Source: Faecalibacterium prausnitzii
GTDB taxonomy: Bacteria; Bacillota; Clostridia; Oscillospirales; Ruminococcaceae
Reading direction: 5' to 3'
NCBI RefSeq assembly: GCF_019967995.1
Contig: NZ_CP065377.1
Location: forward strand, 1,364,001 to 1,428,000
DNA length: 64,000 bases
Shown here: in pieces, positions 1,701 to 20,670 of the stretch
Position numbering within the stretch: position 1 is the first letter of the stretch
Layout: every line of letters begins with the position of its first letter
Notes under the pieces: model-generated
The model's input: only the letters and a program-made list of their open reading frames with translations
Database searches by the model: none
Told to the model about the DNA's origin: nothing
Translations under genes and position numbers: made by a program

Positions 1701-1739
1701 CCACCGCCCCTGCCCGGCAGAGGCTCTGAACAAAACAGG

Positions 1740-1782
1740 AACCCCCTCTTCTGCGTTTTCGGCAGAAGAGGGGGTTCGTTTC
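1740..1782. terminator. Bidirectional intrinsic terminator
   Basis: Perfect 15-bp inverted repeat with arms 1740-1754 and 1762-1776 and a 7-base loop. A-rich sequence lies on one side and GTTTC on the other. It lies between the convergent ABC gene and HD-GYP gene and probably serves both. Confidence 0.85.
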
Positions 1783-2914: not shown

Positions 2915-2932
2915 AGGCAGTTCCTCCGGGGG

Positions 2933-4117: not shown

Positions 4118-4140
4118 GGCGGGCCTCCTTTTGGCGGGGA

Positions 4141-6288: not shown

Positions 6289-6513
6289 ATGGAATTCCAT
6301 TATGAGATCAGGCCCGGCCGCTACCGGCATTTCAAGGGCCGGGAATACGAAGTGCTGGGCATGGCACACCACAGCGAGACCGAAGAAGAACTGGTGGTCT
6401 ACCGCACTCTCTATGGAGACCACGACCTCTGGGTGCGCCCGGCGGCCATGTGGTGCGAGACCGTGGAGCGGGACGGCAGAGTCCAACCCCGCTTTGCCTA
6501 CATCGGGGAGTGA
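6289..6513 (+). CDS. DUF1653 domain protein
   Basis: A small protein of 74 residues matching the DUF1653 pattern: YRHFKGREYEVLG near the N-terminus, the EELVVYRTLYGD core, then LWVRP. The molecular function of the family is not established. AGGAGG lies 8 bases before the ATG, and the next start codon (fdhD) is only 4 bases after its stop, so the two are likely co-transcribed and coupled. Such proteins occur beside many different genes, so the neighbourhood of fdhD is not by itself a clue to function. No signal peptide or membrane segment is present. Confidence 0.8.
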   Translation: MEFHYEIRPGRYRHFKGREYEVLGMAHHSETEEELVVYRTLYGDHDLWVRPAAMWCETVERDGRVQPRFAYIGE

Positions 6514-6517
6514 GCGG

Positions 6518-7276
6518 ATGAAGATCGTAGACCGTTTTGGGAGCCGGCCGGGGGCCGAGCTGGTCCGCCTGCCGCAGGGCGGGGAACGGCAGCTGGCCGT
6601 TGAACACGCCGCAGCCCTCCTCGTCAACGAGCAGACGGCGTTCCGGGTGGTGTGCACCCCGGAGCTTCTGCCGCAGCTGGCGCTGGGCCGCCTGCTGACC
6701 GAAGGGTGGATCGCCGCCGCCGACGAGGTCGAGCAGGTGGCCGTCTGCGCCGAGGGGCTCAAGGTCAGCGTCCACCTGACCCACCCGCTGGCCGCGGTCT
6801 CCGCCGCCGGGCAGGAGGTGCCGAGCTGCTGCACCGACAACCTGACCGTGGCCTCTCCGGTGGTACTCCGCCCGCTGGCCCCGGTGCCGCAGCTGGAAGT
6901 GCCGGAGGCCTGGGTCGGGACGCTGGCCGCAGCCATGGGCGGGGAACTGCCGCTTTACCGCGCCACCCGCGCCGTGCACAGCTGTTTTCTGCTGCGGGCG
7001 GGCCGCATCCTGTACCAGTGCGAGGATCTGGGCCGCCATAATGCGCTCGACAAAGCCGTCGGCTGCGCACTGGCGGACGGAGTGCCGCTGGGGGAGTGCG
7101 TCCTTTACACCAGCGGCCGGGTGCCGGTGGATATGGTGCGCAAGGCCATCCGCGCCGGTGTTCCCGCCCTCGTCAGCAAGACGATGCCCACCGTTCAGTC
7201 GGTGGAGCTGGCGGAAGAATACGGATTGAGGCTGCTCATCCAAAAGAAGAACGAATTTCACGCAAGAATTTCGTGA
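6518..7276 (+). CDS. fdhD: FdhD-family sulfurtransferase for molybdo/tungstoenzyme activation
   Basis: A 252-residue FdhD homologue. In E. coli, FdhD passes sulfur from IscS to the bis-MGD cofactor before insertion into formate dehydrogenase. The conserved C-terminal part is clear: ATRAVHSCFLL, CEDLGRHNALDKAVG and TSGRVPVDMVRKA. The cysteine region expected around residue 105 reads SCCTDN rather than the CxxC of the E. coli protein. No formate dehydrogenase gene is visible in the window. The nearest cofactor enzyme is the AOR-family gene about 1.8 kb downstream, so this FdhD may serve that enzyme (inference) or a formate dehydrogenase elsewhere. The ATG at 6518 follows DUF1653 by 4 bases. Longer in-frame upstream codons would overlap DUF1653 and lack a binding site. 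Confidence 0.88.
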   Translation: MKIVDRFGSRPGAELVRLPQGGERQLAVEHAAALLVNEQTAFRVVCTPELLPQLALGRLLTEGWIAAADEVEQVAVCAEGLKVSVHLTHPLAAVSAAGQEVPSCCTDNLTVASPVVLRPLAPVPQLEVPEAWVGTLAAAMGGELPLYRATRAVHSCFLLRAGRILYQCEDLGRHNALDKAVGCALADGVPLGECVLYTSGRVPVDMVRKAIRAGVPALVSKTMPTVQSVELAEEYGLRLLIQKKNEFHARIS

Positions 7277-7314: not shown

Positions 7315-7343
7315 TTGACTAACCTATGCGGATGATGTTATTC
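7315..7343 (+). promoter_or_regulatory. Possible promoter upstream of the FMN-binding protein gene
   Basis: TTGACT at 7315-7320 and a weak -10 TTATTC at 7338-7343, with 17 bp spacing. The -10 coincides with the left arm of the 7339/7425 inverted repeat, so either this promoter or an RNA helix uses those bases. Confidence 0.35.
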
Positions 7344-7433
7344 TTATAACGAAGATACCGTTCGGCACTGTTGCAGCAGGCTGAGCGGCTGTTTTTCGTG
7401 CATGGAAGCTCTCCGTGCATGACGATAAGAATA
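7339..7433 (+). promoter_or_regulatory. Structured leader or operator before the FMN-binding protein gene
   Basis: A perfect 9-bp inverted repeat (7339-7347 with 7425-7433) encloses a second hairpin of 10 bp (7397-7406 with 7412-7421, loop AGCTC, one G-T pair). The ribosome binding site and ATG follow directly after the outer repeat. This is the shape of a translation-controlling leader RNA. It could equally be a pair of protein-binding sites. No known riboswitch consensus was recognised. Confidence 0.4.
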
Positions 7434-7446
7434 GGCAGGTGAAACA

Positions 7447-8355
7447 ATGAAGCAGGCAAATCATGCGCCGCAGCCGTTGTGGCGCAGACGGCTGCCGGGC
7501 TATGCCGCCATGGGCGCGGCCACACTGGCAATGGCGCTGGGTCTGCATGGGTTGATGAGTGCCCGCACCACGGTGGCAGGCACCCTTCTGCCCCTGGCAG
7601 ATGCCGACGCCGCTACCTATGGCATCCGCGCGGTGTACCAGCTGGACGAGAACACCTATTATGTGGTGGGCGCCCAGAAGGGCTTCCAGAGCGACGTAGA
7701 GGCAGGCGTGACCCTTGACAGCACGGGCAATGTGCAGAGCGTTGCCATCCTGGCGCAGGGCGAGACCGACAACCTCGGTGGCCAGTGCGTAGACCCGGAG
7801 TTCACGTCCCAGTACCAGGGCGCAGCTCCTTTCGCGCTGGCAGGCAAGGCTTACACGGTGACCGACCCGGCCACCGGCACGAGCTATGCCGCCGCAGGCA
7901 GCAGCGAAACAGAAGCCCCCGCAGAGGATTTTGACCCGGCCAACTGGCGGGTCAGCGATGCTTCTCCGGAGGCCGAGGCCACCCGTAAGATGTACGAGGC
8001 GGGCCTCACGCTCTCGGCTCTGAACGGCCAGCCGCTGGACGACGAGCTGGCACCTCCGCTGGATTCCAGCGCTGAGGCTGTGGCACGCCGCAAGCTCTAT
8101 GCGGCAGGCCTGAGCAAGAGCGCACAGGACGGCGAGGACCAGGCATCGCCCTTTGCAGACTGGTCGGCAGAAAAACAGGCGGCCTACCGTCTGGAACAGG
8201 CCGAACTGACGACTTCCGGTGAGGACGCCGGTGCCGCCAGCGCCGACCTGACCGAGGTGGATGCACTGACGGGTGCAACGATCACCTCGACCGCCGTGAC
8301 GAACATCGTCAACAACAGTTATTTCTATGTGACCGAAGTGCTCAGCGCAGAGTAA
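7447..8355 (+). CDS. Membrane-anchored FMN-binding (RnfG/NqrC-like) flavoprotein
   Basis: A 302-residue protein with one N-terminal membrane segment (about residues 17-37) and an FMN_bind core. The core includes GETDNLGG (about residues 103-110) and a flavinylation motif DALTGAT, whose Thr278 would carry FMN attached by an ApbE-type transferase. The rest should face outside the cell. About 90 residues between core and motif form an insert with three degenerate repeats starting near Asp171, Asp206 and Asp238, each like D-x-S-x-E-A-x-x-x-R-K-x-Y-x-A-G-L. Such proteins relay electrons at the membrane. Its place just before the ferredoxin and AOR genes suggests it is their electron partner (inference). 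The start is the ATG at 7447, with AGGTG just upstream. Confidence 0.82.
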   Translation: MKQANHAPQPLWRRRLPGYAAMGAATLAMALGLHGLMSARTTVAGTLLPLADADAATYGIRAVYQLDENTYYVVGAQKGFQSDVEAGVTLDSTGNVQSVAILAQGETDNLGGQCVDPEFTSQYQGAAPFALAGKAYTVTDPATGTSYAAAGSSETEAPAEDFDPANWRVSDASPEAEATRKMYEAGLTLSALNGQPLDDELAPPLDSSAEAVARRKLYAAGLSKSAQDGEDQASPFADWSAEKQAAYRLEQAELTTSGEDAGAASADLTEVDALTGATITSTAVTNIVNNSYFYVTEVLSAE

Positions 8356-8376
8356 CTTCACGGAGGAATGGAACCT

Positions 8377-9021
8377 ATGGCAAAAACCGATTTCCTGACA
8401 GCGGATATGACCCGCCGTCAATTCATGAAAATTTCGGGCAAAAGCCTTGCAGGGCTGAGCCTTTCCGCATCCATGCTGTCGCTGTTCGGCTGCTCGCAGC
8501 AGCAGGTCGATGCCGGCGCAGTGGCGACCTGGGCGCTGCCCCAGGGCCTGCTGGTCGTCAACGCAGACCTGTGCACCGGCTGCCAGCGCTGCGAGATCAA
8601 CTGCACCCTGACCAACGATGGCGTCTGCTCTTCCTACATCAGCCGCGTCAAGATCCAGCGCCGCCTCAATCTGGATGGCGCCGGCAATGGCCTGCTCTCC
8701 GGCACGGACAACTGCTGGGTCTACTTCCCGGACACCTGCCGCCAGTGTGAGGACCCTGCCTGCGGCAACGCCTGCCCGCAGAAGGCCATCACCACCAACG
8801 AGCAGGGCATCCGCGTCGTGGATACCGACAAGTGCATCGGCTGCGGTGCCTGCCACGAGGCCTGCCCCTGGCACATGCCCACCGTCAACCCGGAGACCGG
8901 CAAGTCGTCCAAGTGCATCGCCTGCGGTGCCTGCGTCGCAGGCTGCCCGTCCGGCGCTCTGTCCATCGTGGATTGGGACGCCGTCACCAGCGCAGCACAG
9001 GCTGCCTACATGGACCTGTAA
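8377..9021 (+). CDS. Tat/lipoprotein-type four-cluster ferredoxin, YdhY-like electron-transfer subunit
   Basis: A 214-residue iron-sulfur protein. The N-terminus has RRQFMK followed by a hydrophobic stretch ending in LSLFGC, which looks like a twin-arginine signal with a lipobox. Four cysteine groups follow: CTGCQRCEINC, CRQCEDPACGNAC, CIGCGACHEAC and CIACGACVAGC, enough for four [4Fe-4S] clusters, as in DmsB/NrfC/YdhY proteins. It probably takes electrons from the AOR-family subunit encoded 12 bases downstream. The ATG at 8377 is preferred over 8368 because GGAGGA ends immediately before 8368 but sits 9 bases before 8377. Export would require TatAC, which is not in this window. Confidence 0.87.
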   Translation: MAKTDFLTADMTRRQFMKISGKSLAGLSLSASMLSLFGCSQQQVDAGAVATWALPQGLLVVNADLCTGCQRCEINCTLTNDGVCSSYISRVKIQRRLNLDGAGNGLLSGTDNCWVYFPDTCRQCEDPACGNACPQKAITTNEQGIRVVDTDKCIGCGACHEACPWHMPTVNPETGKSSKCIACGACVAGCPSGALSIVDWDAVTSAAQAAYMDL

Positions 9022-9033
9022 GGAGGAAAAACA

Positions 9034-11190
9034 ATGGCTGAATCTTATGGCTGGGCAGGCAAGCTCCTGCGTGTCAATCTGACCACCGGCGAGATCACGA
9101 CGGAGGATGACACCCAATACCATAAATACATCGGCGGTATGGGCATGGCCTACCGCATCATGTACGACGAGGCTCCCATGGACCTCGACCCCTATGACGA
9201 AAAGGCACTGGTCATCTTCGGTGTCGGCCCCCTGACCGGCTCCGGTGTGCCCTGCTCCGGCCGCATGAACGTGACCTTCCGTTCCACCTGGTCCAAGGGC
9301 AAGTCCATCATTGACGGCCACATGGGCGGCCACATCGGCCCCATGCTGAAGTATGCCGGCTACGATGGCATCATCATCAGCGGCATCTCCGAAAAGCCCG
9401 TCTACCTGCGCATCGAGGACGGCGACGTCTCTCTGGAGGATGCCAGCGCGATCTGGGGCAAGGGCACCTTTGCCTCCAACAAGTGGCTGATCGAGCAGAA
9501 CGGCCGCGAGTTCGAGTCCGCCTCCATCGGCCCTGCCGGTGAGAACCTGGTGGACTACTCCACCCTGAACACCAGCTTCGGCAACTCTGCCGGTGCGGGT
9601 CTGGGCGCTGCGCTGGGCAACAAGAAGCTCAAGGGCCTGGTCATCCGCGGCACCGGCAGCGTCAAGGTCGCAGACCCCAAGAAGGTGCTGGAACTGTCCA
9701 ACTATATGATGGGCAACCTGATCGGCGGCAACAACAACCACAACGTGCCCGCACAGCCCCAGAGCTGGGCGGAGTACAGCGCCACCTCCGGCAAGAACCG
9801 CTGGTCCGGCGCACCCGGCCGCATGTGGAAAAAGGCCCCCGGCGGCCCCGTGGACACCGGCGAGCAGCCCTACAACGACATCAACAAGGTGGCGCTGCGC
9901 TGCTTCAAGGGCTACTTTGACTTCGGCGCACCGGCTGCGGAGTACACCGTGAAGAACGGCGGCTGCTCTTCCTGCCCCATCCGCTGCTACACCGAGTACG
10001 ATGTGGACCCGCTGGCCGATTACGACCTGCCCACCCACAACTCCAACACCTGCATGCCCGTGCTGTACGGCACCCGCGTGTACCCGGACGGCGTCCATGA
10101 CTTCAAGTACGAGGGCGACGGCACCATGGTCATCAATCTGGCATGGGCTCACGCTGTGGACGATATGGGCCTGTGGGACAACTACGGCAACCTGAACCGC
10201 GATCTGCTGTGGATCCTGCGGATGCCCCGCGAGGAGGCCACCCAGTACATCAGCGAGGAAGAGTACGATTCGCTGCCCTGGTCCTGGGAAAAGGCTGGTG
10301 ACCCCCGCTGGGAGGTCGAGCTCATCCGCCGCATGGCCTACGGCGAGGGCGATCTGTCGGTCATCGCTAAGGGTACGCTGGCTATGATGGAAAAGTTCGG
10401 CCTGCCCAAGAGCTGGCTGGACCGCGACGATGGTGCAACCAACTCCAACCTGATCTACAACGGCTTCCCCAACCACCACGGCCCTGCTGAGGCATGGCAG
10501 GTTGGTATGCTGTACAACCTCGTTTACAACCGTGACTGCATGATCCACGAGATCGTCTGCGAGACCGGTTCCGGCGCTCCGTATGAAGTGACCAAGAAGG
10601 TCATGGAAGACTTCTTCGGCGAGGGCTGCTACGACAAGGCCAAGAGCTACACCCCCATCAACGAGAACAAGGCAAAGCTGGCGGCTTACTGCGTCAACGA
10701 TAAGAACTTCCACGACTCTGCTACTCTCTGCAACTGGATGTGGCCCATGACCCAGTCTCCCTCCAAGGAGCGTGAGTACCACGGCGACCTGGATCTGCAG
10801 GCAGACTTTATGACTGCTGTTACCGGCGAGACCTACACCCAGGCAGGCCTGCAGGAGGCTGGCGAGCGCATCACCCAGATGCTCCGCGCCATGACCGCCA
10901 TCAGCTTCCAGAACAACTGCGGCAGTGCAAACCTGCGCCAGGAGCATGATGCGATCTGCGACTGGGTCTTCGACAAGGAGCCGGATTTCAAGGCATTCGA
11001 GGCCGGCACCACCAAGCTGGATCGCGCGGATATGGAAAAGGCCAAGGATCTGTTCTACAATGTCTTTGGCTGGGATCTGACCACCGGTGTGCCCACCCGC
11101 GAGACGCTGGAGAAGTTCGACCTGGCCGATATGGCCGACGACCTCGAAAAGCGCGGCATTTATGCCCAGACCACCGAGGCCGCTGAGTAA
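9034..11190 (+). CDS. Aldehyde:ferredoxin oxidoreductase family catalytic subunit (YdhV-like)
   Basis: A 718-residue member of the AOR family, which carries a bis-molybdopterin tungsten or molybdenum centre plus one [4Fe-4S] cluster. N-terminal features typical of the cofactor-binding fold include GGMGMAYRI and GPLTGSGVPCSGR. Cys311, Cys314 and Cys318 (CSSCPIRC) with Cys642 (HDAIC) fit the cluster ligands. Length and the order ferredoxin-AOR-next gene resemble E. coli YdhY-YdhV-YdhW; YdhV has been reported to bind bis-Mo-MPT. The physiological substrate of this branch is unknown, so aldehyde oxidation is only a family-level guess. It has no signal peptide of its own. If it works with the Tat-type ferredoxin it would either be co-exported or act at the inner face. 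AGGAGG precedes the ATG. Confidence 0.93.
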   Translation: MAESYGWAGKLLRVNLTTGEITTEDDTQYHKYIGGMGMAYRIMYDEAPMDLDPYDEKALVIFGVGPLTGSGVPCSGRMNVTFRSTWSKGKSIIDGHMGGHIGPMLKYAGYDGIIISGISEKPVYLRIEDGDVSLEDASAIWGKGTFASNKWLIEQNGREFESASIGPAGENLVDYSTLNTSFGNSAGAGLGAALGNKKLKGLVIRGTGSVKVADPKKVLELSNYMMGNLIGGNNNHNVPAQPQSWAEYSATSGKNRWSGAPGRMWKKAPGGPVDTGEQPYNDINKVALRCFKGYFDFGAPAAEYTVKNGGCSSCPIRCYTEYDVDPLADYDLPTHNSNTCMPVLYGTRVYPDGVHDFKYEGDGTMVINLAWAHAVDDMGLWDNYGNLNRDLLWILRMPREEATQYISEEEYDSLPWSWEKAGDPRWEVELIRRMAYGEGDLSVIAKGTLAMMEKFGLPKSWLDRDDGATNSNLIYNGFPNHHGPAEAWQVGMLYNLVYNRDCMIHEIVCETGSGAPYEVTKKVMEDFFGEGCYDKAKSYTPINENKAKLAAYCVNDKNFHDSATLCNWMWPMTQSPSKEREYHGDLDLQADFMTAVTGETYTQAGLQEAGERITQMLRAMTAISFQNNCGSANLRQEHDAICDWVFDKEPDFKAFEAGTTKLDRADMEKAKDLFYNVFGWDLTTGVPTRETLEKFDLADMADDLEKRGIYAQTTEAAE

Positions 11191-11217
11191 AATCCCACAG
11201 AAACGAGGAAATTTGCC

Positions 11218-12156
11218 ATGTTGTTTGGCAGACGCAAACCCGGCTATACCACCACTGTGGATGGTGCAGCCGACCCCGAACAGGTCGTGCTGGATCTGCA
11301 GAAGGCGGAGATGGCCGCAAAGAAAAAGCCCAAGGCGGAGGTGTTCAGCATCGACGCCGCCAGCGAGACCGCCCGCCGCCTGAAAGAGACGGGCAGCACC
11401 TTCGATGGCAGCGCCGCCAAGGCGGGCGAGGACGTGATGGCTGTGGTGGAGCGCGAGACCAGCGAGCTGGCTGCAAAGCAGCAGGCCGCCGGAGCCGCGC
11501 CCGAAGCTGCTGAGGCCCCCGCTGTGCCGGAAGGCACCGACGCGGCCGACGCCAAGCCGGAGCTGCTGGACTTTCTGGCTGCTGCCCCCGATGCGGAGAA
11601 CGACCCCTACGCAGACCAGCCCACCAAAACGGCTCCGGAACTGCCGGAGCTGACCCCGGCGCAGCAGCTGGCAGGGTTCATCCGCTCCCGCTCGGCGGCC
11701 GCTCTGGTCACGGCACATGCCCAGCTGGTCTCGGAGGTGGAAAACGCCGACGAGCTGCTGGCTCAAATGCCGCAGGACCCCCAGTGTGAGGATATCGTCT
11801 CCCGCACTGGTGCCAAGGACACCTACTACTATTCCAGCGCCAACATGAGCGACAATTACGCGATGATCGCGCAGCTCATCGAGGACCGGGACCTGTGTGT
11901 GATGTTCGCGGAGATGGTGCGGTTCAATGCCCGCATCTACCCCAGCGCCACCCCGCTGCGCTACTTCCAGCGCTCCCCCTACGGCCTTGCGCCGGACGAG
12001 ATCGAGCAGACCTGGAAGACCATGCAGGGCAGGCCGGAGTTTGCGGACATTGAGGAGCTGACCAACAACCAGAACGAGCGGTTCCTCTTTTCCACCCAGT
12101 ATCTCACCCGCCGCTACGCCAAAGCCATCAGCGACGTGGATGAGTTCTGCGATTAA
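11218..12156 (+). CDS. YdhW-like protein of unknown function
   Basis: A 312-residue protein, cytoplasmic by sequence. Residues 1-155 are low complexity, rich in Ala, Glu and Pro, and probably flexible. The C-terminal half from about residue 150 is well ordered, with YYYSSANMSDNYAMIA, FNARIYPSATPLRYF and FLFSTQYLTRRYA. The C-terminal pattern and its position straight after the AOR gene point to the E. coli YdhW group, an uncharacterised partner of YdhV. A chaperone or assembly role is a guess. It starts 27 bases after the AOR stop and is probably the last gene of that operon, because a long structured non-coding stretch follows. Confidence 0.6.
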   Translation: MLFGRRKPGYTTTVDGAADPEQVVLDLQKAEMAAKKKPKAEVFSIDAASETARRLKETGSTFDGSAAKAGEDVMAVVERETSELAAKQQAAGAAPEAAEAPAVPEGTDAADAKPELLDFLAAAPDAENDPYADQPTKTAPELPELTPAQQLAGFIRSRSAAALVTAHAQLVSEVENADELLAQMPQDPQCEDIVSRTGAKDTYYYSSANMSDNYAMIAQLIEDRDLCVMFAEMVRFNARIYPSATPLRYFQRSPYGLAPDEIEQTWKTMQGRPEFADIEELTNNQNERFLFSTQYLTRRYAKAISDVDEFCD

Positions 12157-12604
12157 ACATTCCAGAGCAAAACTGAATAGGGTATAAGAGCTTCTTTGAG
12201 CAAAGGCGTCTAAACCCGCAGGGCACTGACGCCGCGCCGCAATGCTAAGGGCCTGCACCGCAGACCGGCATTCAAGGGTGGCAGGGGAAACCCGGCCGCC
12301 TTCCCGCAGAAGAAACGCTGCAATTTGAAAAAAAGAACTCCTCCCATCGACCCGACACCGGGGCCTGCCCTGTGCATGGCTGCTGCAACAGCCCGCGCGG
12401 AGCGAGTCCCGCCCGGCACAGCTGTCTGCAAACAGCCGCGCGGGGTGTGCGTCGTGTTTTCTGCGGGGGCGTTTTGATTTTCGGTCAAGACGTCCCCGCA
12501 TTTTTTACCTGCCGTTTGAAAACGATGGAACCCACAAGGGGGCATGCTGTCCGGGCCATAGCGGACGGCGGCTCTCTGCGGGATAAAATGGAGGATATTT
12601 TTCG
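12157..12604 (+). other. 448-base non-coding region: structured leader and terminator before moeA
   Basis: No credible gene on either strand. A weak promoter (TTCCAG, 17 bp, TATAAG at about 12183) could start a leader RNA. Two similar hairpins occur, GGCTG/CAGCC near 12378 and GCTGT/ACAGC near 12421, both with the loop CTGCAA and followed by CGCGCGG. CTGTGC (12370-12375) can pair with GCACAG (12416-12421), while GCACA (12416-12420) can instead pair with TGTGC (12445-12449), so two alternative folds are possible just before the terminator at 12463. This is the layout of an attenuating riboswitch, perhaps for molybdenum cofactor given the gene it precedes. The known Moco motif was not identified by eye. 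Confidence 0.45.
12463..12506 (+). terminator. Intrinsic terminator upstream of moeA
   Basis: A 15-bp stem, arms 12463-12477 and 12485-12499 with two G-T pairs, followed by A and six T. It ends either the AOR operon or a leader RNA. It lies 98 bases before moeA, so it could regulate entry into the cofactor operon. Confidence 0.85.
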
Positions 12605-13843
12605 ATGAAACAGCCTTTTTGTGCGCCTGCCGAGGCGCTGCGCCGTGTGCTGGATGCCGCGGCGGCACTGCCCCGGCCTGCGGTCGAGAATGTCGGGCTG
12701 GACGAGGCCTGCGGACGGATCGCCGCTGCGCCGCTCTGCGCCCGGATGGACCAGCCTCCCTTTGACCGGAGCCCGCTGGACGGCTATGCGCTGCACAGCG
12801 CCGACACCGCCGGGGCCGGGGAGATGACCCCCAAAGCCCTGCCGGTGGTGATGAAGCTCTATGCCGGGGATGCCCCCACGGCAGAGCTGCCTGTCGGCTG
12901 CGCGGCCCGCATCATGACCGGTGCGCCGCTGCCCGCCGGGGCCGACTGCGTCCTGATGCAGGAGCAGACCGACGGCGGGGAAGAGACCGTGCGCATCTAC
13001 GCCGAACTTTCCCACAACGCGAACGTGGTCTTCCGGGGCGAGGACATCGCCGCCGGAGCGCTGGTCGCCGAAGCGGGCACGGTGCTCACGCCTGCCCACC
13101 TCGGTGTGCTGGCCGGGCAGGGTTATGCTGAAGTGCCGGTGTACAAGCCGCTCACCATCGGTGTGCTGGCCACCGGCAGCGAGCTTCTGGCCCCCGGAGA
13201 GTCTTGGGCGCCCGGCAAGATCTACGACGCCAACGGCATCCAGAATGCGGCCCGCCTGCGCCAGCTGGGATTCGCCGTCCGCCGCCGCCACTGCTCGGAC
13301 GACCCGGCCCGCATCGCCGCCGAGCTGGAAGAATTGCTCACCGGGTGCGATGCCGTCATCACCAGCGGCGGCGTGTCGGTCGGGCAGAAGGATTATCTGC
13401 CCATAGTGCTGGAAATGCTGGGTGCCCGGAGCATTTTTGCGGGGGTCGCCCAGAAGCCCGGCAGCCCGATGCTGGCCGCAGAGGTCGAGGGAAAACTCGT
13501 GTTCTGCCTGTCGGGCAACCCCTTTGCCGCCGCAGCCACTCTGGAACAATACGCCGTCCCGGCCCTGCTGCGGGCCGCCGGGCGGCAGGAGGAAGCCTGC
13601 ATCCTGCCCCGCACCCGCCGCACCCTGACCACCGGCTTTTCCAAGCCCAGCAAGGGGAACCGCTACCTGCGGGCCAGAGCATCGGGCGGCACCGTTGCCA
13701 TCCCCGGCGAGGGCAACACCGAGGCCCATTCGTCCGGCAGCCTGTCGGCCATGATCGGCTGCAATTCTTTGGTGGAGCTGCCTGCTGGCAGCGGCCCGGT
13801 GGAGCCGGGCGAGGAAGTGGAGGTGCTTTCCTTTGTATACTGA
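12605..13843 (+). CDS. moeA: MoeA, molybdopterin molybdotransferase
   Basis: A 412-residue MoeA, which inserts molybdate into adenylylated molybdopterin, the last step of Mo-MPT formation. The N-terminal domain shows FDRSPLDGYA and RIMTGAPLPAGAD. The molybdopterin-binding domain has ITSGGVSVGQKDY and VFCLSGNPFAA. The domain order and the C-terminal beta-barrel (about residues 330-412) are standard. GGAGG lies 11 bases upstream of the ATG. It opens the cofactor-synthesis operon, and the downstream mobB start overlaps its 3' end by 11 bases. Expression may depend on read-through of the 12463 terminator. Confidence 0.94.
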   Translation: MKQPFCAPAEALRRVLDAAAALPRPAVENVGLDEACGRIAAAPLCARMDQPPFDRSPLDGYALHSADTAGAGEMTPKALPVVMKLYAGDAPTAELPVGCAARIMTGAPLPAGADCVLMQEQTDGGEETVRIYAELSHNANVVFRGEDIAAGALVAEAGTVLTPAHLGVLAGQGYAEVPVYKPLTIGVLATGSELLAPGESWAPGKIYDANGIQNAARLRQLGFAVRRRHCSDDPARIAAELEELLTGCDAVITSGGVSVGQKDYLPIVLEMLGARSIFAGVAQKPGSPMLAAEVEGKLVFCLSGNPFAAAATLEQYAVPALLRAAGRQEEACILPRTRRTLTTGFSKPSKGNRYLRARASGGTVAIPGEGNTEAHSSGSLSAMIGCNSLVELPAGSGPVEPGEEVEVLSFVY

Positions 13844-14351
13844 ACGCAAAGAGGCTCTGGCCGCAGAGCTGAGCCTGAAACACCCGGCGGTGCTTGCCGT
13901 CAGCGGGGTGCACAACAGCGGCAAGACCACCCTTTTGGAAAAGCTCATCCCGCTGCTGCGGGCGCGGGGGCTGAAGGTGGGCGTCATCAAGCACGACGGC
14001 CACGATTTCACCCCCGATGTCCCCGGCACCGACAGCTTCCGCCTGCGCGAAGCCGGAGCCGAGGGCGTGGCCGTCTTTTCCGGGCAGCGCTATCTGCTCA
14101 CGGAAGCGTTCCGCCTCACCGAGCAGGATCTGCTGGCCCTGTTCGAGCGCCATGGCTATGATCTGGTGCTGATGGAGGGCTTCAAGGAGAGCGGCTGGCC
14201 CAAGATCGAAGTCGTGCGCAGCGCCATCTCCAATGAGCCGGCCTCCTTTGAGCCGCTGGCCGTCGTGGGCGATGTGCCGGGCGCGGATTTTGCACTGGAT
14301 GAGCCGGAGGCACTGGCCGACTGGATCGCAGCCCAGATGCCCGCGCTGTGA
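13833..14351 (+). CDS. mobB: MobB, molybdopterin-guanine dinucleotide biosynthesis adapter
   Basis: A 172-residue P-loop protein with HNSGKTTLLEKL as Walker A, VGVIKHDGHDF and LVLMEGFKES, the typical MobB signature. MobB assists MobA in attaching GMP to the cofactor, but no mobA is present in this window. The start is a TTG overlapping the end of moeA, supported by GGAGG 9 bases upstream, so it is translationally coupled. Its presence suggests the organism makes a guanine dinucleotide form of the cofactor, for example for an FdhD-dependent enzyme, besides whatever form the AOR uses (inference). Confidence 0.9.
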   Translation: MYTERKEALAAELSLKHPAVLAVSGVHNSGKTTLLEKLIPLLRARGLKVGVIKHDGHDFTPDVPGTDSFRLREAGAEGVAVFSGQRYLLTEAFRLTEQDLLALFERHGYDLVLMEGFKESGWPKIEVVRSAISNEPASFEPLAVVGDVPGADFALDEPEALADWIAAQMPAL

Positions 14352-14370
14352 GGAAGAGAGGAAAGCGATT

Positions 14371-15390
14371 ATGAAACTGATCCGTACCGAAGACGCCGCA
14401 GGGCAGGTGCTCTGCCACGATATCACCCAGATCCTTCCGGGCGAGTTCAAAGGCCCCCGCTTCCGCAAGGGCCACATCGTCCAGCCGGAGGATATCCCGG
14501 TGCTGCTGAGCATCGGCAAGGAGAACCTGTACGTCTGGGAAAAGACGCCCGGCATCCTCCACGAGGACGAAGCCGCCGCGCTGCTCTATCGGGCCGCTGC
14601 GGGCAGGAACATCCACGGCACCGAGCCGAAGGAGGGCAAGATCGAGCTGATCGCCGACTGCGACGGCCTGCTCAAGATCGACCGCGCCGCTTTGCTGGCC
14701 GTCAACCGCACCCCGCAGATGATGATCGCCACCATCCACGGCGACATGCCGGTGAAAAAAGGAGCCAAACTGGCCGGTACCCGCATCATCCCGCTGGTCA
14801 TCGAGCAGGAAAAGATGGACGCCATGCAGAAAGCAGCGGGGGACAAGCCCATCCTGAACGTCCTGCCCTTCCACCAGAAGAAGTTTGCGGTCATCACCAC
14901 GGGCAGCGAGGTCTTCAAGGGCCGCATCGAGGATAAATTCACCCCCATCCTGGAACGCAAGCTGGCGGAATACGGCTGCGAGATGGTCTTCCACAAGGTC
15001 TGCGACGACGACCCGGCGGGCATCACAGCGGCCATTCTGGAAGCAAAGGTGGCGGGCTGCGAGCTGATCTTCACCACCGGCGGCATGAGCGTGGACCCCG
15101 ACGACCGCACCCCGCTGGCCATCCGAAACACCGGGGCTGACATCATCAGCTACGGTGCGCCGGTGCTGCCCGGTGCCATGTTCCTGGTCAGCTATCTGGA
15201 CGGTGTGCCTGTCTGCGGCCTGCCGGGCTGCGTGATGTACGCCAAGCGGACCATTTTCGATCTGCTGCTGCCCCGTCTGCTGGCCGATGACCCCATCACC
15301 GCCGAGGATATCGCCCGCCTGGGGGAGGGCGGCCTCTGCCTGGGCTGCGGCACCTGCACCTGGCCCAACTGCGGGTTCGGGCACTGCTGA
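14371..15390 (+). CDS. Second MoeA-like molybdopterin-binding protein with C-terminal cysteine motif
   Basis: A 339-residue protein whose central part (about residues 165-310) is a MoeA/MogA-type molybdopterin-binding domain, with ITTGSEVFKGRI and FTTGGMSVDPDD. It lacks the complete four-domain MoeA architecture. The last 20 residues contain five cysteines, in CLGCGTCTWPNCGFGHC, which could bind metal or an Fe-S cluster. Proteins of this type occur in Clostridia near molybdo- or tungstoenzymes. Selection of the metal or insertion of a specific cofactor form is a reasonable guess, not shown. It starts 19 bases after mobB behind a GA-rich binding site and is clearly in the operon. Confidence 0.8.
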   Translation: MKLIRTEDAAGQVLCHDITQILPGEFKGPRFRKGHIVQPEDIPVLLSIGKENLYVWEKTPGILHEDEAAALLYRAAAGRNIHGTEPKEGKIELIADCDGLLKIDRAALLAVNRTPQMMIATIHGDMPVKKGAKLAGTRIIPLVIEQEKMDAMQKAAGDKPILNVLPFHQKKFAVITTGSEVFKGRIEDKFTPILERKLAEYGCEMVFHKVCDDDPAGITAAILEAKVAGCELIFTTGGMSVDPDDRTPLAIRNTGADIISYGAPVLPGAMFLVSYLDGVPVCGLPGCVMYAKRTIFDLLLPRLLADDPITAEDIARLGEGGLCLGCGTCTWPNCGFGHC

Positions 15391-15435
15391 ACGAGCTCCG
15401 TTGTGAAAGGCTACACGAAGGATAACGTGAATTTT

Positions 15436-15939
15436 ATGAATACAACAGAAAATAAACTGACCCATTTCGATGCCGAGGGCAATGCGGTGATGGTGGACGT
15501 GAGCGGCAAGCCTGTCACCTCCCGCGAGGCCACGGCCCACGGCATCATTACCATGAACGAAGACGCCTTTGCCGCCGTGCAGAACGGCACGGTGAAGAAA
15601 GGCGATGTGCTGGGCGTAGCCCGCGTGGCCGGCATCATGGCCACCAAGCGCACCAGCGAGCTGATCCCGCTGTGCCATCCGCTGCCGCTGACCAAGGTGC
15701 AGATCGAGTTCGAACTGCTGCCGGAGCGCCGGGCGGTGGAGGCCCGCTGCACCGTCAAGACCAGCGGCGTCACCGGCGTGGAGATGGAGGCCCTGACCGG
15801 TGTTTCCACCGCGCTGCTGACCATCTACGATATGTGCAAGGCCGTGGATAAGGGGATGGAACTGGGCGAGATCCATCTGGAAAAGAAGAGCGGCGGCAAG
15901 AGCGGCCTGTACATCCGGGCGGAGGGCGGCTATGTTTGA
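15436..15939 (+). CDS. moaC: MoaC, cyclic pyranopterin monophosphate synthase
   Basis: A 167-residue MoaC, which converts the MoaA product to cyclic pyranopterin monophosphate. Hallmarks seen are [23 protein letters not shown], the [11 protein letters not shown] active-site segment and the closing EKKSGGKSG. The length is normal for the family. The ATG at 15436 matches the usual N-terminus of MoaC. In-frame GTG codons at 15403 and 15427 are possible but have no better binding site. The 3' end overlaps moaA by 8 bases, so the two consecutive enzymes of the first pathway step are coupled. Confidence 0.94.
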
Positions 15940-16912
15940 TGCAAAAGGCCGCACGATCCACTATCTGCGCCTCTCGGTCACCGACCTGTGCAACCTGCGC
16001 TGCCGCTACTGTATGCCGGACGGTGTGGAGAAACTGGAACGGGAAGATATCCTGACGTACGAAGAATTTCTCCGCCTTGCCGCACAGTTTGCGCAGTGCG
16101 GGGTGGATACGGTCCGCGTCACCGGCGGCGAGCCGCTGGTGCGCAAAGGCGTGGATCATCTGGTGGCGCAGCTGAAAGCCATCCCCGGCATCCGCCGTGT
16201 CACCATGACCACCAATGGGGTGCTGCTGGCGCAGCAGCTGCCCGCCCTGCTTGCCGCCGGGCTGGACAGCGTGAACATCAGCCTGGACACCCTTTCACCG
16301 GAAGTGTTCGCCCGCATCACCGCGCGGGACGCCTTTGCGGACGTGATGGCGGGCATCCGGGCCGCGCTGGAAAGCGGCCTGCCCGTCAAGCTGAACTGCG
16401 TGCCGCAGGTGGGCGTCAACGAGGGAGAGCTGGAAGCGCTGGCCGCTCTGGCGGAGACAAAGCCTTTGCAGGTGCGCTTCATCGAGATGATGCCCATCGG
16501 CTATGGGGCTGCAATGCCCTGCATCTCAGGGCCGGACCTGCTGGCCCGCTTCCGGAAGCGCTGGCCGGAGCTGGCCCCGCTTTCCCGTCAGGAAACGGCA
16601 GACATCGGCGACGGCCCGGCAGTCTACTACACCGCGCCGGGCTGGCAGGGGAGCGTGGGCTTCATTGCGGCCGTGCACGGCAAGTTCTGCGCTTCCTGCA
16701 ACCGGGTCCGGCTCACGAGTCAGGGTTTTCTGCGGCCCTGCCTTGCCAGCGAGGCGGGCTGCGACCTGAAAATGCTCCTGCGCAGCGGCGCGTCGGACGA
16801 AGCGCTGCTCAGCGCCATCCGCACCACCATCTGGGAAAAGCCCCAGGAGCACCACTTTGAATTGAAACAGGATGTCCCGGCTACGCGCGGGATGTATCGG
16901 ATCGGAGGATAA
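15932..16912 (+). CDS. moaA: MoaA, GTP 3',8-cyclase
   Basis: A 326-residue radical-SAM enzyme that, with MoaC, turns GTP into cyclic pyranopterin monophosphate. The N-terminal cluster motif is CNLRCRYC. The SAM-binding GGEPL is present. The C-terminal second cluster is supplied by CASCNRVRL plus the Cys in FLRPCL. The protein ends in GG, as expected for the activating C-terminal tail of MoaA. It overlaps moaC by 8 bases and has GGAGGG just before its ATG. All residues expected for activity appear intact. Confidence 0.95.
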
Positions 16913-16913
16913 T

Positions 16914-17846
16914 ATGGGAAAGATCCTGGCCATTTGCACCAGCCCGAAGCGCGGCACCGTCAAGACCGAGGTGCCCGAAGCCACCCTGACCCCGGAATGG
17001 GGCATTGAGACCGACGCCCACGGCGGAAACTGGCACCGTCAGGTCAGCCTGCTCAGCGCCGAGAAGATCGAGAACTTCCGCAAGAAGATCTGGGTCGATT
17101 ACGGTGCCTTTGGCGAAAACCTCGTTGTGGAGGGGTTCGATTTCCGCAATCTGCCCGTCACCAGCCGCTTTCAGGTCGGTGAGGTCGTGCTGGAGATGAC
17201 CCAGATCGGCAAGGAATGCCACAACGACTGCGTCATCAAACAGCAGACCGGCGAGTGCATCATGCCCCACGAGGGCGTGTTCGCCCGTGTGCTCCACGGC
17301 GGCACGCTCCATGTGGGCGATGAAATGATCCTGCTGCCCCCGGAAGAAGACCCGCCGCTGCGCGCAGCCGTCATCACCCTGTCGGACAAAGGCGCCCGCG
17401 GCGAGCGGGAGGACAAGAGCGGCCCGCTCATCGTGGAGATGCTGACCGCCGCCGGGTACAAAGTGGAAGAGACCATGATCCTACCCGATGAGGCCAAGGC
17501 GCTGAAGGCCCAGCTCATCCGGCTGGCCGACGGCCGACAGGTGAACCTGATCTTGACCACCGGCGGCACCGGCTTCTCCCCGCGCGATATCACCCCAGAG
17601 GTCACCTATGCCGTGGCCACCCGCAGCGCCCCCGGCATCGCCGAGGCCATGCGGTACCACAGCCTGAGCATCACCCCGCGTGGGATGCTCAGCCGCGCAG
17701 CCAGCGTCCTGCGCGGCAAGACCCTCATCGTCAATCTGCCGGGCAGCCCCAAGGCCGTGCAGGAGAATCTGGAGTACATCCTGCCCAGCCTCGAACACGG
17801 CATCCGCATCGCTGCCGGGCTGGACGGCGAGTGTGCCCGGAAGTAA
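16914..17846 (+). CDS. MOSC domain fused to MogA/MoaB molybdopterin adenylyltransferase
   Basis: A 310-residue fusion. Residues 1-145 form a MOSC domain (AHGGNWHRQVSLLS, FGENLVVEGFD, GKECHNDCVI), a fold associated with sulfur or metal transfer on molybdenum cofactor. Residues about 155-305 are a MogA/MoaB domain (VITLSDKGARGEREDKSG, TTGGTGFSPRDITPEVT, LPGSPKAVQENL), which adenylylates molybdopterin before MoeA inserts the metal. Coupling adenylylation to a MOSC domain fits its place between moaA and modA. The ATG at 16914 has GGAGG 5 bases before it, and the longer upstream reading overlaps moaA without a site. Confidence 0.9.
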   Translation: MGKILAICTSPKRGTVKTEVPEATLTPEWGIETDAHGGNWHRQVSLLSAEKIENFRKKIWVDYGAFGENLVVEGFDFRNLPVTSRFQVGEVVLEMTQIGKECHNDCVIKQQTGECIMPHEGVFARVLHGGTLHVGDEMILLPPEEDPPLRAAVITLSDKGARGEREDKSGPLIVEMLTAAGYKVEETMILPDEAKALKAQLIRLADGRQVNLILTTGGTGFSPRDITPEVTYAVATRSAPGIAEAMRYHSLSITPRGMLSRAASVLRGKTLIVNLPGSPKAVQENLEYILPSLEHGIRIAAGLDGECARK

Positions 17847-17853
17847 TGCGGCC

Positions 17854-17886
17854 TTTACAGCCCCGCCCTGCGGGAGACGCTGTAAA
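17854..17886 (+). promoter_or_regulatory. Strong hairpin or operator before modA
   Basis: TTTACAGC at 17854-17861 and GCTGTAAA at 17879-17886 are perfect inverted copies. Inside them CCCGC (17862-17866) can pair with GCGGG (17870-17874), leaving an AGAC bulge. No T-run follows, so it is not a typical terminator. It may process or regulate the switch from cofactor genes to transporter genes, or bind a regulator. Confidence 0.4.
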
Positions 17887-17923
17887 CGATAACTCTATGG
17901 GAACAACAGAAGGAGAAATGACC

Positions 17924-18808
17924 ATGAATGCCCAGATCTCCCGCCGCGGCTTCCTGTGCGCTGCCGGCATCGCGTCCGCATCTGCTGCCCTGACCGCCTG
18001 CGGCGGCTCCAGCAGCTCCGTTTCCTCCGTGGCAGGCTCTGCCGCCGCCTCTTCGGAGGCTGCTTCGGGCGAGTCCGTCGAGCTGATCGTCTTCGCTGCA
18101 GCGTCCCTGACCGAGACGCTGAACGCCATCGCCGAGACCTATTCGGCGGAGAACTCCGGCGTGACCTTCCGCTTCAACTTCGACTCTTCCGGCACCCTGA
18201 AGACCCAGATCCAGGAGGGCGCAGACTGCGACCTGTTCCTTTCGGCAGGTCAGAAGCAGATGAACCAGCTGGACAGCACCGCTTCCGCTGAGGTGAACAC
18301 CGAGGGTCTGGATTTCGTGGACAGCGATTCCCGCGTGGATCTGCTGGAAAATAAGGTCGTCCTGTGCGTCCCCGAAAATGCCGACAAGGGCATCGACAGC
18401 TTCGATTCTCTGGCCGAGCACCTGAAGGCTGAGGACATTCTGTTCTGCATGGGCAACAGCGATGTGCCGGTGGGGCAGTACACCCAGAAGATCCTGGCCT
18501 ACTACGAGCTGGACGAAGCCGCTCTGGCTGCGGCCGGTGTCATCACCTACGGCTCCAACGTCAAGGAAGTCACCACTCAGGTCAGCGAGGCCAGCGTGGA
18601 TGCCGGTGTCGTCTACTGCACCGATGCCTTCAGCGCCGGTCTGAAGGTCGTGGATGAGGCCACGAAGGAGATGTGCGGTCAGGTCATCTACCCGGCTGCC
18701 GTCCTGAAGGCTTCCCCCAACGCCGTTGCTGCCCGGAAATTCCTGGAGTATCTGCAGACCTCTGCGGCAGGCGAAGTGTTCGAGAGCGTCGGCTTCACCG
18801 CACTGTAA
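17924..18808 (+). CDS. modA: ModA, molybdate ABC transporter substrate-binding lipoprotein
   Basis: A 294-residue periplasmic-binding-type protein. The N-terminus SRRGFLCAAGIASASAALTAC resembles a twin-arginine signal ending in a lipobox, with mature Cys near residue 25, followed by a Ser/Ala-rich linker. The ModA core begins with VFAAASLTETLNAIAE and continues with FNFDSSGTLKTQI, CDLFLSAGQKQM, GNSDVPVGQYTQ and DAGVVYCTDA, matching molybdate binders rather than tungstate-type TupA by pattern. AGGAG lies 8 bases before the ATG at 17924. An ATG at 17918 is too close. It is followed by modB after a 144-base gap containing a palindrome. Confidence 0.92.
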   Translation: MNAQISRRGFLCAAGIASASAALTACGGSSSSVSSVAGSAAASSEAASGESVELIVFAAASLTETLNAIAETYSAENSGVTFRFNFDSSGTLKTQIQEGADCDLFLSAGQKQMNQLDSTASAEVNTEGLDFVDSDSRVDLLENKVVLCVPENADKGIDSFDSLAEHLKAEDILFCMGNSDVPVGQYTQKILAYYELDEAALAAAGVITYGSNVKEVTTQVSEASVDAGVVYCTDAFSAGLKVVDEATKEMCGQVIYPAAVLKASPNAVAARKFLEYLQTSAAGEVFESVGFTAL

Positions 18809-18825
18809 ACCGCTCAATCTCGCAT

Positions 18826-18896
18826 TGGCTCGCCAGCTCCCCTGATAGGGGAGCCCTTGGCAGGCCGGGCAGGCTGTGACTGGCCGAAGGAGGTCC
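18826..18896. repeat. Palindromic intergenic repeat between modA and modB
   Basis: GCTCCCCT and AGGGGAGC flank a three-base centre at about 18837-18855, followed by a second GC-rich arm pair around GGCCGGGCAGG. It resembles short GC-rich interspersed palindromes common in these genomes. Transcription must pass through it to reach modB. Confidence 0.4.
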
Positions 18897-18952
18897 CGGA
18901 CGCCGGAAACAGCAGGGCCCTGCTGTGAGACGAAATAGGGAGGTGAAAGCAA

Positions 18953-19627
18953 GTGGACTGGTATCCTTTATGGAACAGCCTGCGCATTGCGCTCATCAGC
19001 TGCGCAGCGGTGTTCTTCCTCGGCATTTTTGCCGCCTATTATATCGCAAAGCTGCCCCGTGTGCTCAAAGGTGTGCTGGACGTGGTGCTCACCCTGCCCA
19101 TGGTCCTGCCGCCCACGGTCGTGGGTTATTTCCTGCTGCTGCTGTTCGGTGCCAAGCGGCCGCTGGGCCTCTTCTTTCTGGAGCATTTCGGCGTCAAGCT
19201 GGTCATGAACTGGTACAGCGCCATCTTTGCCTCCATCGTGGTGGCCTTCCCGCTGATGTACCGCACGGCCCGCGGCGCGTTCGAGAGCTTCGACGAGACG
19301 CTGGCCTGGTCTGCGCAGACGCTGGGACTTTCCAACACCTGGATCTTCTGGCGGGTGCGGATGCCCTATTGCCGTCAGGGCATCCTGGCCGGAACGGTGC
19401 TGGCCTTTGCCCGCGCGCTGGGCGAGTACGGCGCGACCAGCATGATCGCAGGCTACACTCCCGGCAAAACGGCCACCATCGCCACCACGGTGTATCAGCT
19501 CTGGCGCACCAACGATGAGAGGGGGGCGATGCAGTGGGTGCTGGTGGACATCGTCATCTCGGCAGTGGTGCTGTTGGCGGTCAACCTGCTGGAACGCAAA
19601 CAGAAGCAGGGAGGGAAGCGCACATGA
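18953..19627 (+). CDS. modB: ModB, molybdate ABC transporter permease
   Basis: A 224-residue inner-membrane permease with about five hydrophobic segments. It carries the EAA-loop signature of ABC importers, seen as TLGLSNTWIFWRVRMPYC followed by GTVLAFARALGEYGAT, which is characteristic of ModB/CysT permeases. It forms the membrane channel with ModA and ModC. The start is GTG, with GGGAGGTG 7-8 bases upstream. Its stop overlaps the modC start in an ATGA arrangement. Confidence 0.93.
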   Translation: MDWYPLWNSLRIALISCAAVFFLGIFAAYYIAKLPRVLKGVLDVVLTLPMVLPPTVVGYFLLLLFGAKRPLGLFFLEHFGVKLVMNWYSAIFASIVVAFPLMYRTARGAFESFDETLAWSAQTLGLSNTWIFWRVRMPYCRQGILAGTVLAFARALGEYGATSMIAGYTPGKTATIATTVYQLWRTNDERGAMQWVLVDIVISAVVLLAVNLLERKQKQGGKRT

Positions 19628-20670
19628 GTTTGGACGTCAAGATCACCAAACGGTTCGACGGCTTCACCCTTCGCACGGAGTTCACAGCGGGCAATACCAC
19701 CGCCGCCATCCTCGGCGCATCCGGCTGCGGCAAAAGCATGACCCTGCGCTGCATTGCGGGCATCGTCAGACCCGACAGCGGCCGCATCGTGCTGGACGGC
19801 CGTGTCCTGTTCGACAGCGAACAGGGCATCGACCTGCCCCCGCAGCAGAGGAACGTGGGCCTGCTGTTCCAGAACTACGCGCTGTTCCCGAATATGACGG
19901 TGGAGCAGAACATCCTCTGCGCGCTGAAAAAGGAGAAGGACCCCGCCGCCCGCAAGGCGGCCTGTGCGGAGGCCCTGCGCGCCATGCGGCTGGAGAAACT
20001 GGCCCACCGCCTGCCCAGTGAGCTTTCGGGCGGGCAGCAGCAGCGCGCTGCGCTGGCCCGCATCCTGGCAGGCAAGCCCCGTATCCTGATGCTGGACGAG
20101 CCGTTCAGCGCACTGGACAGCTACCTCCGCGAGGAAGTGGAGGGCGAAGTGGGCAGCCTGCTGGCCGGGTTTGACGGCACGGCCCTGCTCGTGACCCACA
20201 ACCGCGACGAGGCCTACCGTCTCTGCCGCGAGATGATCGTCATGGACGGCGGCGAGGTGCTGCGGGCCGGCACGACCAGAGAGGTCTTTGCAGACCCCCG
20301 CCGCCTGACCGCCGCCCGCCTGACCGGCTGCAAGAACATCCTGCCCTGCGTCCGGGTGGACGCGCACCGGGTGCATCTCACCGGCTGGGAGCAGGAGCTT
20401 GCCGTGGCGCTCCCGGTGCCGGAAAACTGCACCGCCGTGGGCATCCGTGCCCATGACCTCGTGCCCGCCGCAGCGGACAGCGACAACCGGCTGCCGGTGC
20501 GTGTGGGCGCTTCGAGCGAGAATCCGTTCGACTGGAATGTCATCTGCACCTCGGTGGATGGCAGCGCAAAGTTGTGGTGGAAGGTCTCCAAAACGACGCT
20601 TTCTTCACCCCTGCCGGAGACCCCGGCCTTCCTCCGGGCGGCGCCGGAAAACATCATGCCGCTGGTATAA
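19624..20670 (+). CDS. modC: ModC, molybdate ABC transporter ATP-binding protein
   Basis: A 348-residue ATPase of the molybdate importer. Walker A is GASGCGKS (about residues 31-38), the Q-loop FQNYALF, the signature LSGGQQQR, Walker B ILMLDEP, and the switch VTHNRDEAYR. A C-terminal extension of roughly 110 residues corresponds to the regulatory (TOBE/MOP-like) part, though the typical MOP sequence is only loosely recognisable. It overlaps modB by four bases. The gene ends just before a strong bidirectional terminator that closes the whole molybdenum island. Confidence 0.92.
   Translation: MSLDVKITKRFDGFTLRTEFTAGNTTAAILGASGCGKSMTLRCIAGIVRPDSGRIVLDGRVLFDSEQGIDLPPQQRNVGLLFQNYALFPNMTVEQNILCALKKEKDPAARKAACAEALRAMRLEKLAHRLPSELSGGQQQRAALARILAGKPRILMLDEPFSALDSYLREEVEGEVGSLLAGFDGTALLVTHNRDEAYRLCREMIVMDGGEVLRAGTTREVFADPRRLTAARLTGCKNILPCVRVDAHRVHLTGWEQELAVALPVPENCTAVGIRAHDLVPAAADSDNRLPVRVGASSENPFDWNVICTSVDGSAKLWWKVSKTTLSSPLPETPAFLRAAPENIMPLV

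Follow-up and report, generated by a model that had tools for sequence, protein, structure and literature searches.

A conserved ydhYVW gene set with a candidate flavinylated membrane partner in Faecalibacterium prausnitzii

The closest described relatives of the gene set analysed here are the YdhYVWXUT system of Escherichia coli, in which YdhX, YdhU and YdhT form a membrane module, and the Class V WORs (clade 41, the YdhV type). According to PMC13328260 (June 2026) the latter comprise a WorL, a WorS with a twin-arginine translocation (Tat) signal and/or a membrane segment, and at least one further subunit. They are present in many gut genera, Faecalibacterium being among those listed, though none of them has yet been given an activity or role. 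One sentence of that report mentions a 'membrane-bound flavin-binding subunit' of gut Clostridia; the parts of the report covered here say nothing of its motif, conservation, rnf context or electron route, and note tat genes for Cetobacterium somerae only. Beyond this sentence we found no description of the flavin subunit in the open-licence literature, judged mostly from titles and the beginnings of abstracts. We describe here a four-gene ydhYVW-type set from Faecalibacterium prausnitzii, whose genome is a single contig of 2.94 Mb. The set lies in a stretch of 64,000 nucleotides (NZ_CP065377.1, positions 1,364,001 to 1,428,000), termed the window and numbered from its first letter.

The four genes run head to tail on the + strand from 7447 to 12156. 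The gaps between them are 12, 12 and 27 bp, with purine-rich stretches ahead of the start codons. The set is flanked by fdhD on the 5′ side and by cofactor genes and modABC on the 3′ side. The first gene encodes a flavin mononucleotide (FMN)-binding protein that we call FMNp.

7447..8355, + strand: FMNp, membrane-anchored FMN_bind protein, 302 aa (Pfam FMN_bind, 2e-12)
8368..9021, + strand: YdhY/WorS-like ferredoxin, 217 aa (NCBIfam PRK09898, 241.5 bits, over the cut-off of 213)
9034..11190, + strand: YdhV/WorL-like bis-pyranopterin Mo/W subunit, 718 aa (Pfam AFOR_N 2.3e-61, AFOR_C 6.7e-34)
11218..12156, + strand: YdhW-like protein (PRK09947, 3e-36, but 125 bits against a cut-off of 203)

We take PRK09898 to be the model of E. 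coli ydhY. An earlier, sequence-only reading had proposed the order ydhY-ydhV-ydhW, with ydhX, ydhU and ydhT replaced by an upstream RnfG-like FMN protein. Both proposals are borne out. All four open reading frames are confirmed, and no relative of ydhX, ydhU or ydhT is found in the first 20 kb of the window (the rest of the genome was not searched for them). The locus shares with E. coli the homologues of YdhY, YdhV and YdhW in the same order, the lipobox of YdhY and the five cofactor cysteines of YdhV. It differs in that an FMN_bind protein and fdhD stand upstream instead of the YdhX/U/T module, in having two arginines in the Tat motif, and in the adjoining molybdenum cofactor and modABC genes. 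The set also resembles the Class V WORs: homology to YdhV extends over the full length, the WorS carries a Tat signal, the cysteine ligand is present as Cys340 (its ligand role being taken from what PMC12096430 reports of YdhV), and the extra genes, FMNp and ydhW, may encode further subunits. The FMNp-ydhYVW set is real and conserved, and represents a variant form of the Class V WOR/Ydh enzymes. The suggestion that such a system had not been described in detail stands as regards the detail, but the novelty is smaller than it seemed, as the subunit already has its sentence in PMC13328260. On balance we think it probable that the set encodes a Tat-exported, lipid-anchored YdhYV oxidoreductase of the Class V type, with FMNp as its membrane-side partner and electrons flowing inward to the enzyme.

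Conservation was examined in the best 80 of 482 related loci, where gene labels are best BLAST matches to a small reference set and curated models confirm selected genes only. In 12 of the 80, from four named genera plus two metagenome-assembled genomes (MAGs), FMNp lies next to ydhYVW. These are seven Faecalibacterium loci, L042 (a Hungatella MAG), L043 (Anaerocolumna aminovalerica), L045 (Oribacterium), and L046 and L051 (clostridial MAGs). In L042, L043 and L046 a tatC-tatA pair on the opposite strand lies between FMNp and ydhY. Within Faecalibacterium, FMNp is held by 13 of 31 genomes (11 of the 22 of good quality). All 12 further loci fetched have the order fdhD-FMNp-ydhY-AOR, as in the window, and are 95-98% identical to it in YdhY, 91-93% in the fetched part of the AOR (about 270 aa) and 71-84% in FMNp. 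The fdhD-FMNp-ydhY adjacency is therefore found in 13/13 FMNp-holding genomes. The arrangement is not due to chance, because it recurs both there and in 12 of the 80 loci, and the adjacency on which the sequence-only reading depended is conserved in Faecalibacterium and in five other clostridial loci.

A tree of the AOR subunit was built from 81 rows out of 85 sources, those dropped having no AOR frame of 640-760 aa; the tree includes no outgroup clades. All 13 FMNp-bearing rows, the window included, fall in one clade of 17 (SH-aLRT 100). The FMNp label changes three times on this tree compared with a mean of 12.4 on shuffling, and none of 500 shuffles was as low, though near-copies help. A single gain followed by later losses would be the simplest history, if not the sole one, because all 13 rows lie in that one clade. 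More widely the genes are sparse: AOR matches occur in 7 of 148 genomes of the family (full length in only four, this genome included), and across the class FMNp and AOR are found in 1 and 3 of 391 genomes, too few for a test of co-occurrence.

Other loci have other partners. The E. coli set, recognized by ydhU, is found in 34 of the 80. In six coriobacterial loci (L099, L106, L108, L111, L112 and L114) ydhV is divergent from a group in which ydhY is joined by genes for a molybdopterin oxidoreductase, an NrfD protein and a ferredoxin of the YdhX type, the last three families being confirmed in L106. Two catalytic subunits may possibly be combined there in one exported system. Because the ydhU, coriobacterial and FMNp loci differ in this way, the ydhYV core takes differing membrane partners, which fits the 'Lego' principle set out in PMC4257093, and likewise in PMC13328260, in the parts covered. 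In Anaerosolibacter (L101:4050-5652, with the same order in L103) apbE and a gene for a small FMN_bind protein (23.6 bits against a cut-off of 22) stand upstream of ydhYVW-fdhD-tatAC, an arrangement that reads as a second flavin link to the ydhYVW core. The glucocorticoid 21-dehydroxylation cluster Elen_2451-2454, which contains FdhD and a ferredoxin and is tungstate-sensitive (as described in parts of PMC11835702 and PMC12294831), was considered as a possible instance of the same system. It was rejected on the published description, sequences not being compared, because the enzyme gene is there called a molybdopterin oxidoreductase and is accompanied by an SPFH/band 7 protein, and the portions covered name no FMN protein.

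FMNp has a single N-terminal hydrophobic stretch, judged by eye, that corresponds to a helix at residues 21-37 in the predicted model, and contains one cysteine in 302 residues. Its relatives by profile are RnfG (7zc6_G, 1.8e-18), 9eri_G and NqrC chains. Foldseek likewise places RnfG/NqrC on top (best E 2.3e-4), using a low-confidence model (mean pLDDT 57.5, core 75-80). An insert parts the two halves of the FMN-binding fold, with two or three helical units, counted by eye, around SPEAxAxRKLYxAGL. FMNp thus shares with RnfG/NqrC the N-terminal anchor, the FMN_bind fold and the [S/T]GAT motif. It differs from them by the insert and by its score against the rnfG model TIGR01947, which at 36.9 bits is far below the cut-off of 102 and places it outside RnfG; the genome has its own rnfG elsewhere, and FMNp does not lie inside an rnf operon. 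PceC/RdhC of organohalide respiration is a similar case: this membrane protein carries covalent FMN in a domain on the outer side and has been proposed as the electron donor to a reductase (PMC5928378, in the part covered). It has several membrane segments as well as two CX3CP motifs, in contrast to the one hydrophobic stretch and single cysteine of FMNp, which therefore falls outside the family.

The motif DALTGAT occupies residues 272-278 of FMNp and agrees with the flavinylation motif [S/T]GA[S/T] as defined in PMC8238504. With its FMN_bind domain and the single apbE of the genome, FMNp conforms to the ApbE-flavinylated type, and its flavinylation is likely, as the sequence-only reading had supposed. 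We found apbE in 17 of 17 other genomes searched, one match being a fragment. Among 237 FMNp homologues listed, 123 carry DALSGAT and 107 DALTGAT. The homologue lists covered the best 120 of 1252 and the best 120 of 1274. In G541, G538 and G539 a longer or partial FMNp relative adjoins apbE, not ydhYVW.

YdhY of the window is 47% identical to E. coli YdhY, and its sixteen cysteines form four 4Fe-4S motifs by eye. Among solved structures, those closest to it in sequence are polyferredoxins and a subunit of the DMSO-reductase type, followed by the AOR small subunits 9mqx_E (8e-17) and 8c0z_C (1e-14). The N-terminus, TRRQFMK...LSLFGC, contains a Tat motif and a lipobox, as had been noticed from the sequence. 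These are features of the YdhY family and not peculiar to the combination with FMNp. The signal divides cleanly according to ydhU, the ydhU-bearing loci lying within L052-L102. Twin arginines are present in 44/44 readable YdhY of loci without ydhU, window included; where ydhU is present 33/33 have a single arginine, together with a lipobox-like site. The signal was unreadable in L047, L050, L053, L085 and L025 (the same contig as L053), and a cruder first pattern count over 84 YdhY (RR in 46/84, lipobox in 60/84) was regrouped in this one.

Stretches of up to 18 kb were fetched around the loci. Where neither ydhU nor the coriobacterial DMSOR-like gene is present, tatA or tatC occurs in the stretch in 24 of 40 cases, compared with 0 of 40 where one of these partners is present. 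The 16 without nearby tat genes include eight Faecalibacterium, and several end early at contig ends. Since the tat locus is usually single in a megabase genome, this proximity would be far above chance, and we regard it as strong evidence for export by Tat. The identity of tatC was checked in L043 and in our genome, which has a single tatC, accompanied by tatA and a tatB-like gene, away from the window locus. The genome therefore has both apbE and tatA/tatC, whose absence would have told against the sequence-only reading, and rnf genes too. The notion that YdhY alone uses Tat was rejected, since a search of the DNA for RRxF[LM]K found 19 matches against 2 in a reversed control, 13 of the 19 being within the first 70 residues of a reading frame, mostly solute-binding lipoproteins by eye.

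These data bear on the location of the enzyme. YdhV of the window has no signal peptide of its own, YdhY in ydhU-bearing loci has a single arginine, and the lone YdhV of Eggerthella and Gordonibacter was predicted to be cytoplasmic (PMC4257093, in the part covered). One might therefore place YdhYV in the cytoplasm with YdhY at the inner face of the membrane. The invariable twin arginines outside the ydhU set, and the tat genes near so many of the operons that lack other partners, make this highly improbable, and YdhV is probably exported.

The catalytic subunit is 44% identical to E. coli YdhV over about 700 aa, that is over its length, and scores 848.7 bits against PRK09849, just below the cut-off of 868. 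Cys311, Cys314, Cys318, Cys566 and Cys340 are invariant in an alignment of 35 rows. The first four are presumably the 4Fe-4S ligands, by analogy with Pyrococcus furiosus AOR. Cys340 aligns with Cys336 of E. coli YdhV, which is reported to be a metal ligand equivalent to Cys322 of BamB; YdhV and BamB are both reported to lack the second-shell residues of AOR (PMC12096430, in the part covered). Around these residues, Glu313, His448 and Tyr427 in P. furiosus numbering, the alignment of the window subunit to solved AORs is weak (profile alignment to 1aor, 10.7 bits), and their absence is taken from that review. The window YdhV thus shares with BamB, a Class II benzoyl-CoA reductase, the AOR fold and the cysteine ligand. 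BamB belongs to a multi-subunit bifurcating cytoplasmic complex, in contrast to YdhV, which is paired here with an exported ferredoxin and with FMNp. The BamC-I subunits were not among the neighbouring genes scanned, and the genome was not searched for them.

The fourth protein is 36% identical to E. coli YdhW and has an N-terminal extension of about 110 residues. Two tandem winged-helix domains are predicted at about aa 145-310. No signal peptide was seen, no relative was found in the PDB by sequence (in one search, only E 0.15 and worse), and no consistent Pfam family across 46 chosen members. Foldseek gave no match under 0.001, only common winged-helix matches, which show no function. YdhW is encoded in the fetched stretch of 79 of the 80 loci. 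We regard it as a candidate maturation factor of YdhV, for which, according to PMC9103625, no Moco-binding chaperone has been identified.

We can suggest how these components might function together. YdhV would fold in the cytoplasm and receive a bis-pyranopterin Mo or W cofactor, served by FdhD and the adjoining moe, moa and mod genes, and YdhW would help it to mature. It would exit on the Tat signal of YdhY, which would end as a lipoprotein at the outer face. FMNp, anchored by one N-terminal helix and with FMN attached outside by ApbE, would replace YdhX/U/T as the electron partner. Electrons would pass from cytosolic ferredoxin or NADH to an Rnf-type complex, then via FMNp and the clusters of YdhY to YdhV, and so reduce an extracytoplasmic substrate.

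FMNp has no membrane-spanning redox centre, and an electron donor is therefore needed. The genome has rnfC-D-G-E-A-B, where rnfG is called by its FMN_bind domain and place, and rnfA is marginally under the cut-off. In L051, a Eubacteriales MAG, a single weakly MobB-like gene separates FMNp from a full rnfCDGEAB operon (398-5474) upstream of it. The row at L051:5735-10957 consists of that gene, FMNp, ydhYVW and moeA, followed by a protein with C_GCAxxG_C_C and FMN_bind domains and tatA-tatC. Two further regions of the genome encode proteins of related type. At about 2780470-2782802 (L029:2471-4802) there is a second RnfD/E/A-like trio, under the family cut-offs and with no rnfB, rnfC or rnfG seen beside it. 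At about 2452542-2455030 (L027:7543-10030) a row of three genes encodes a two-domain FMN_bind protein, a single-domain FMN_bind protein and a membrane Fer4_5 protein. The latter could form an extracytoplasmic flavin relay and corresponds perhaps to the cyf genes of PMC4257093, sequences not being compared. Both are other candidates for the donor to FMNp.

The same parts could also support an outward flow, the direction (AOR to ferredoxin to FMN) taken in the sequence-only reading. YdhV would then oxidize an outside substrate and pass electrons through YdhY and FMNp to Rnf or to an extracellular acceptor, for which the flavin/thiol shuttle reported for F. prausnitzii is a candidate. AOR-family enzymes of most characterized clades do oxidize aldehydes, and extracellular electron transfer by F. 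prausnitzii is cited in PMC4257093. Against this, the reported lack of the AOR catalytic shell and the BamB-type cysteine favour a low-potential reductase fed by FMNp, and a C. somerae relative (the large subunit alone, partially purified) oxidized 0 of 46 aldehydes. We therefore consider the outward flow unlikely, and flow inward to YdhV the more likely direction. The BamB-like ligand, the rnf genes of the genome and the rnf operon ahead of FMNp in L051 together favour the route from ferredoxin through Rnf, FMNp and YdhY to YdhV, the Rnf step being drawn from that one neighbourhood and the literature.

A number of observations weigh against the proposed scheme. An rnf neighbourhood is found in one locus of the 80 only, FMNp itself shows no redox path across the membrane, and the fetched stretches of the Faecalibacterium loci contain no tat genes. 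Seven of the 237 listed homologues carry DALAGAT in place of [S/T]GAT, and one F. prausnitzii strain (L035, the same as L160; L035:6287-7321) has DALSSAT, so that its FMNp may be without flavin. FMNp is absent from 18 of the 31 Faecalibacterium genomes, one of which (G081) has an AOR of 47% identity, and from the loci of four members of the clade of 17, L040, L044, L047 and L048, although in L044 the contig stops too early for a verdict. The genomes of these four and of L050 yielded no full-length FMNp, two of the five having a partial or longer relative. It follows that the enzyme can do without FMNp.

FMNp might not be the electron partner of YdhYV at all. It might have a role in maturation or sensing, or belong to a separate flavin pathway, and be merely co-regulated. 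L040 and L048, with ydhYVW and tat genes but no FMNp, would agree with this, as would the second FMNp relative of Anaerocolumna aminovalerica, a protein of 450 aa with a longer insert that is divergent from apbE and away from ydhYVW (L148:7524-10291). However, FMN_bind proteins have an established function as electron carriers outside the cytosol (PMC8238504, in the part covered), and the 13/13 adjacency in Faecalibacterium and the clade-wise distribution speak for a partner. We consider this explanation more unlikely still than outward flow.

The genes around the set include the following.

6289-6513: DUF1653 protein, 74 aa, just before fdhD (Pfam 6.9e-31)
6518..7276, + strand: fdhD/narQ-type sulfurtransferase (Pfam FdhD-NarQ 7.1e-49; TIGR00129 127.8 bits, below the cut-off of 140.9)
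7315-7344: promoter-like site before the FMNp gene (consensus match only)
12462..12500, + strand: terminator-like hairpin after ydhW, 18 pairs then TTTTTT (consensus match only)
12605..17846, + strand: Mo/W cofactor genes moeA, mobB, a second moeA-like gene (MoCF_biosynth), moaC, moaA and a MOSC-mogA-like fusion (Pfam/NCBIfam)
17831..20670, + strand: modABC molybdate transporter (modA TIGR01256 and modB TIGR02141 over cut-off, modC-like ATPase under)

The fdhD reading frame is open from 6284, and the start at 6518 was picked by eye. Terminator-like sites are no commoner than in shuffled sequence (7 seen, 5.4 expected).

The FMNp-type set, with an electron feed that is small and apparently free of cytochromes, offers a simpler case for tracing the donor and the reaction of a Class V WOR. 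YdhW, encoded in all but one of the 80 fetched stretches, is a concrete candidate for the YdhV chaperone. In Faecalibacterium the set ties flavinylation, and perhaps Rnf, to exported Mo/W enzymes. Tentatively, and with a good deal of doubt, we suggest that FMNp may form a branch from the outer flavin of Rnf to a Tat-exported, Cys-ligated bis-pyranopterin reductase, with YdhW as the factor dedicated to cofactor insertion in the YdhV clade. If this is true, ferredoxin would be connected to the outside by a respiratory chain that contains neither quinone nor cytochrome, in an abundant genus of the human gut.

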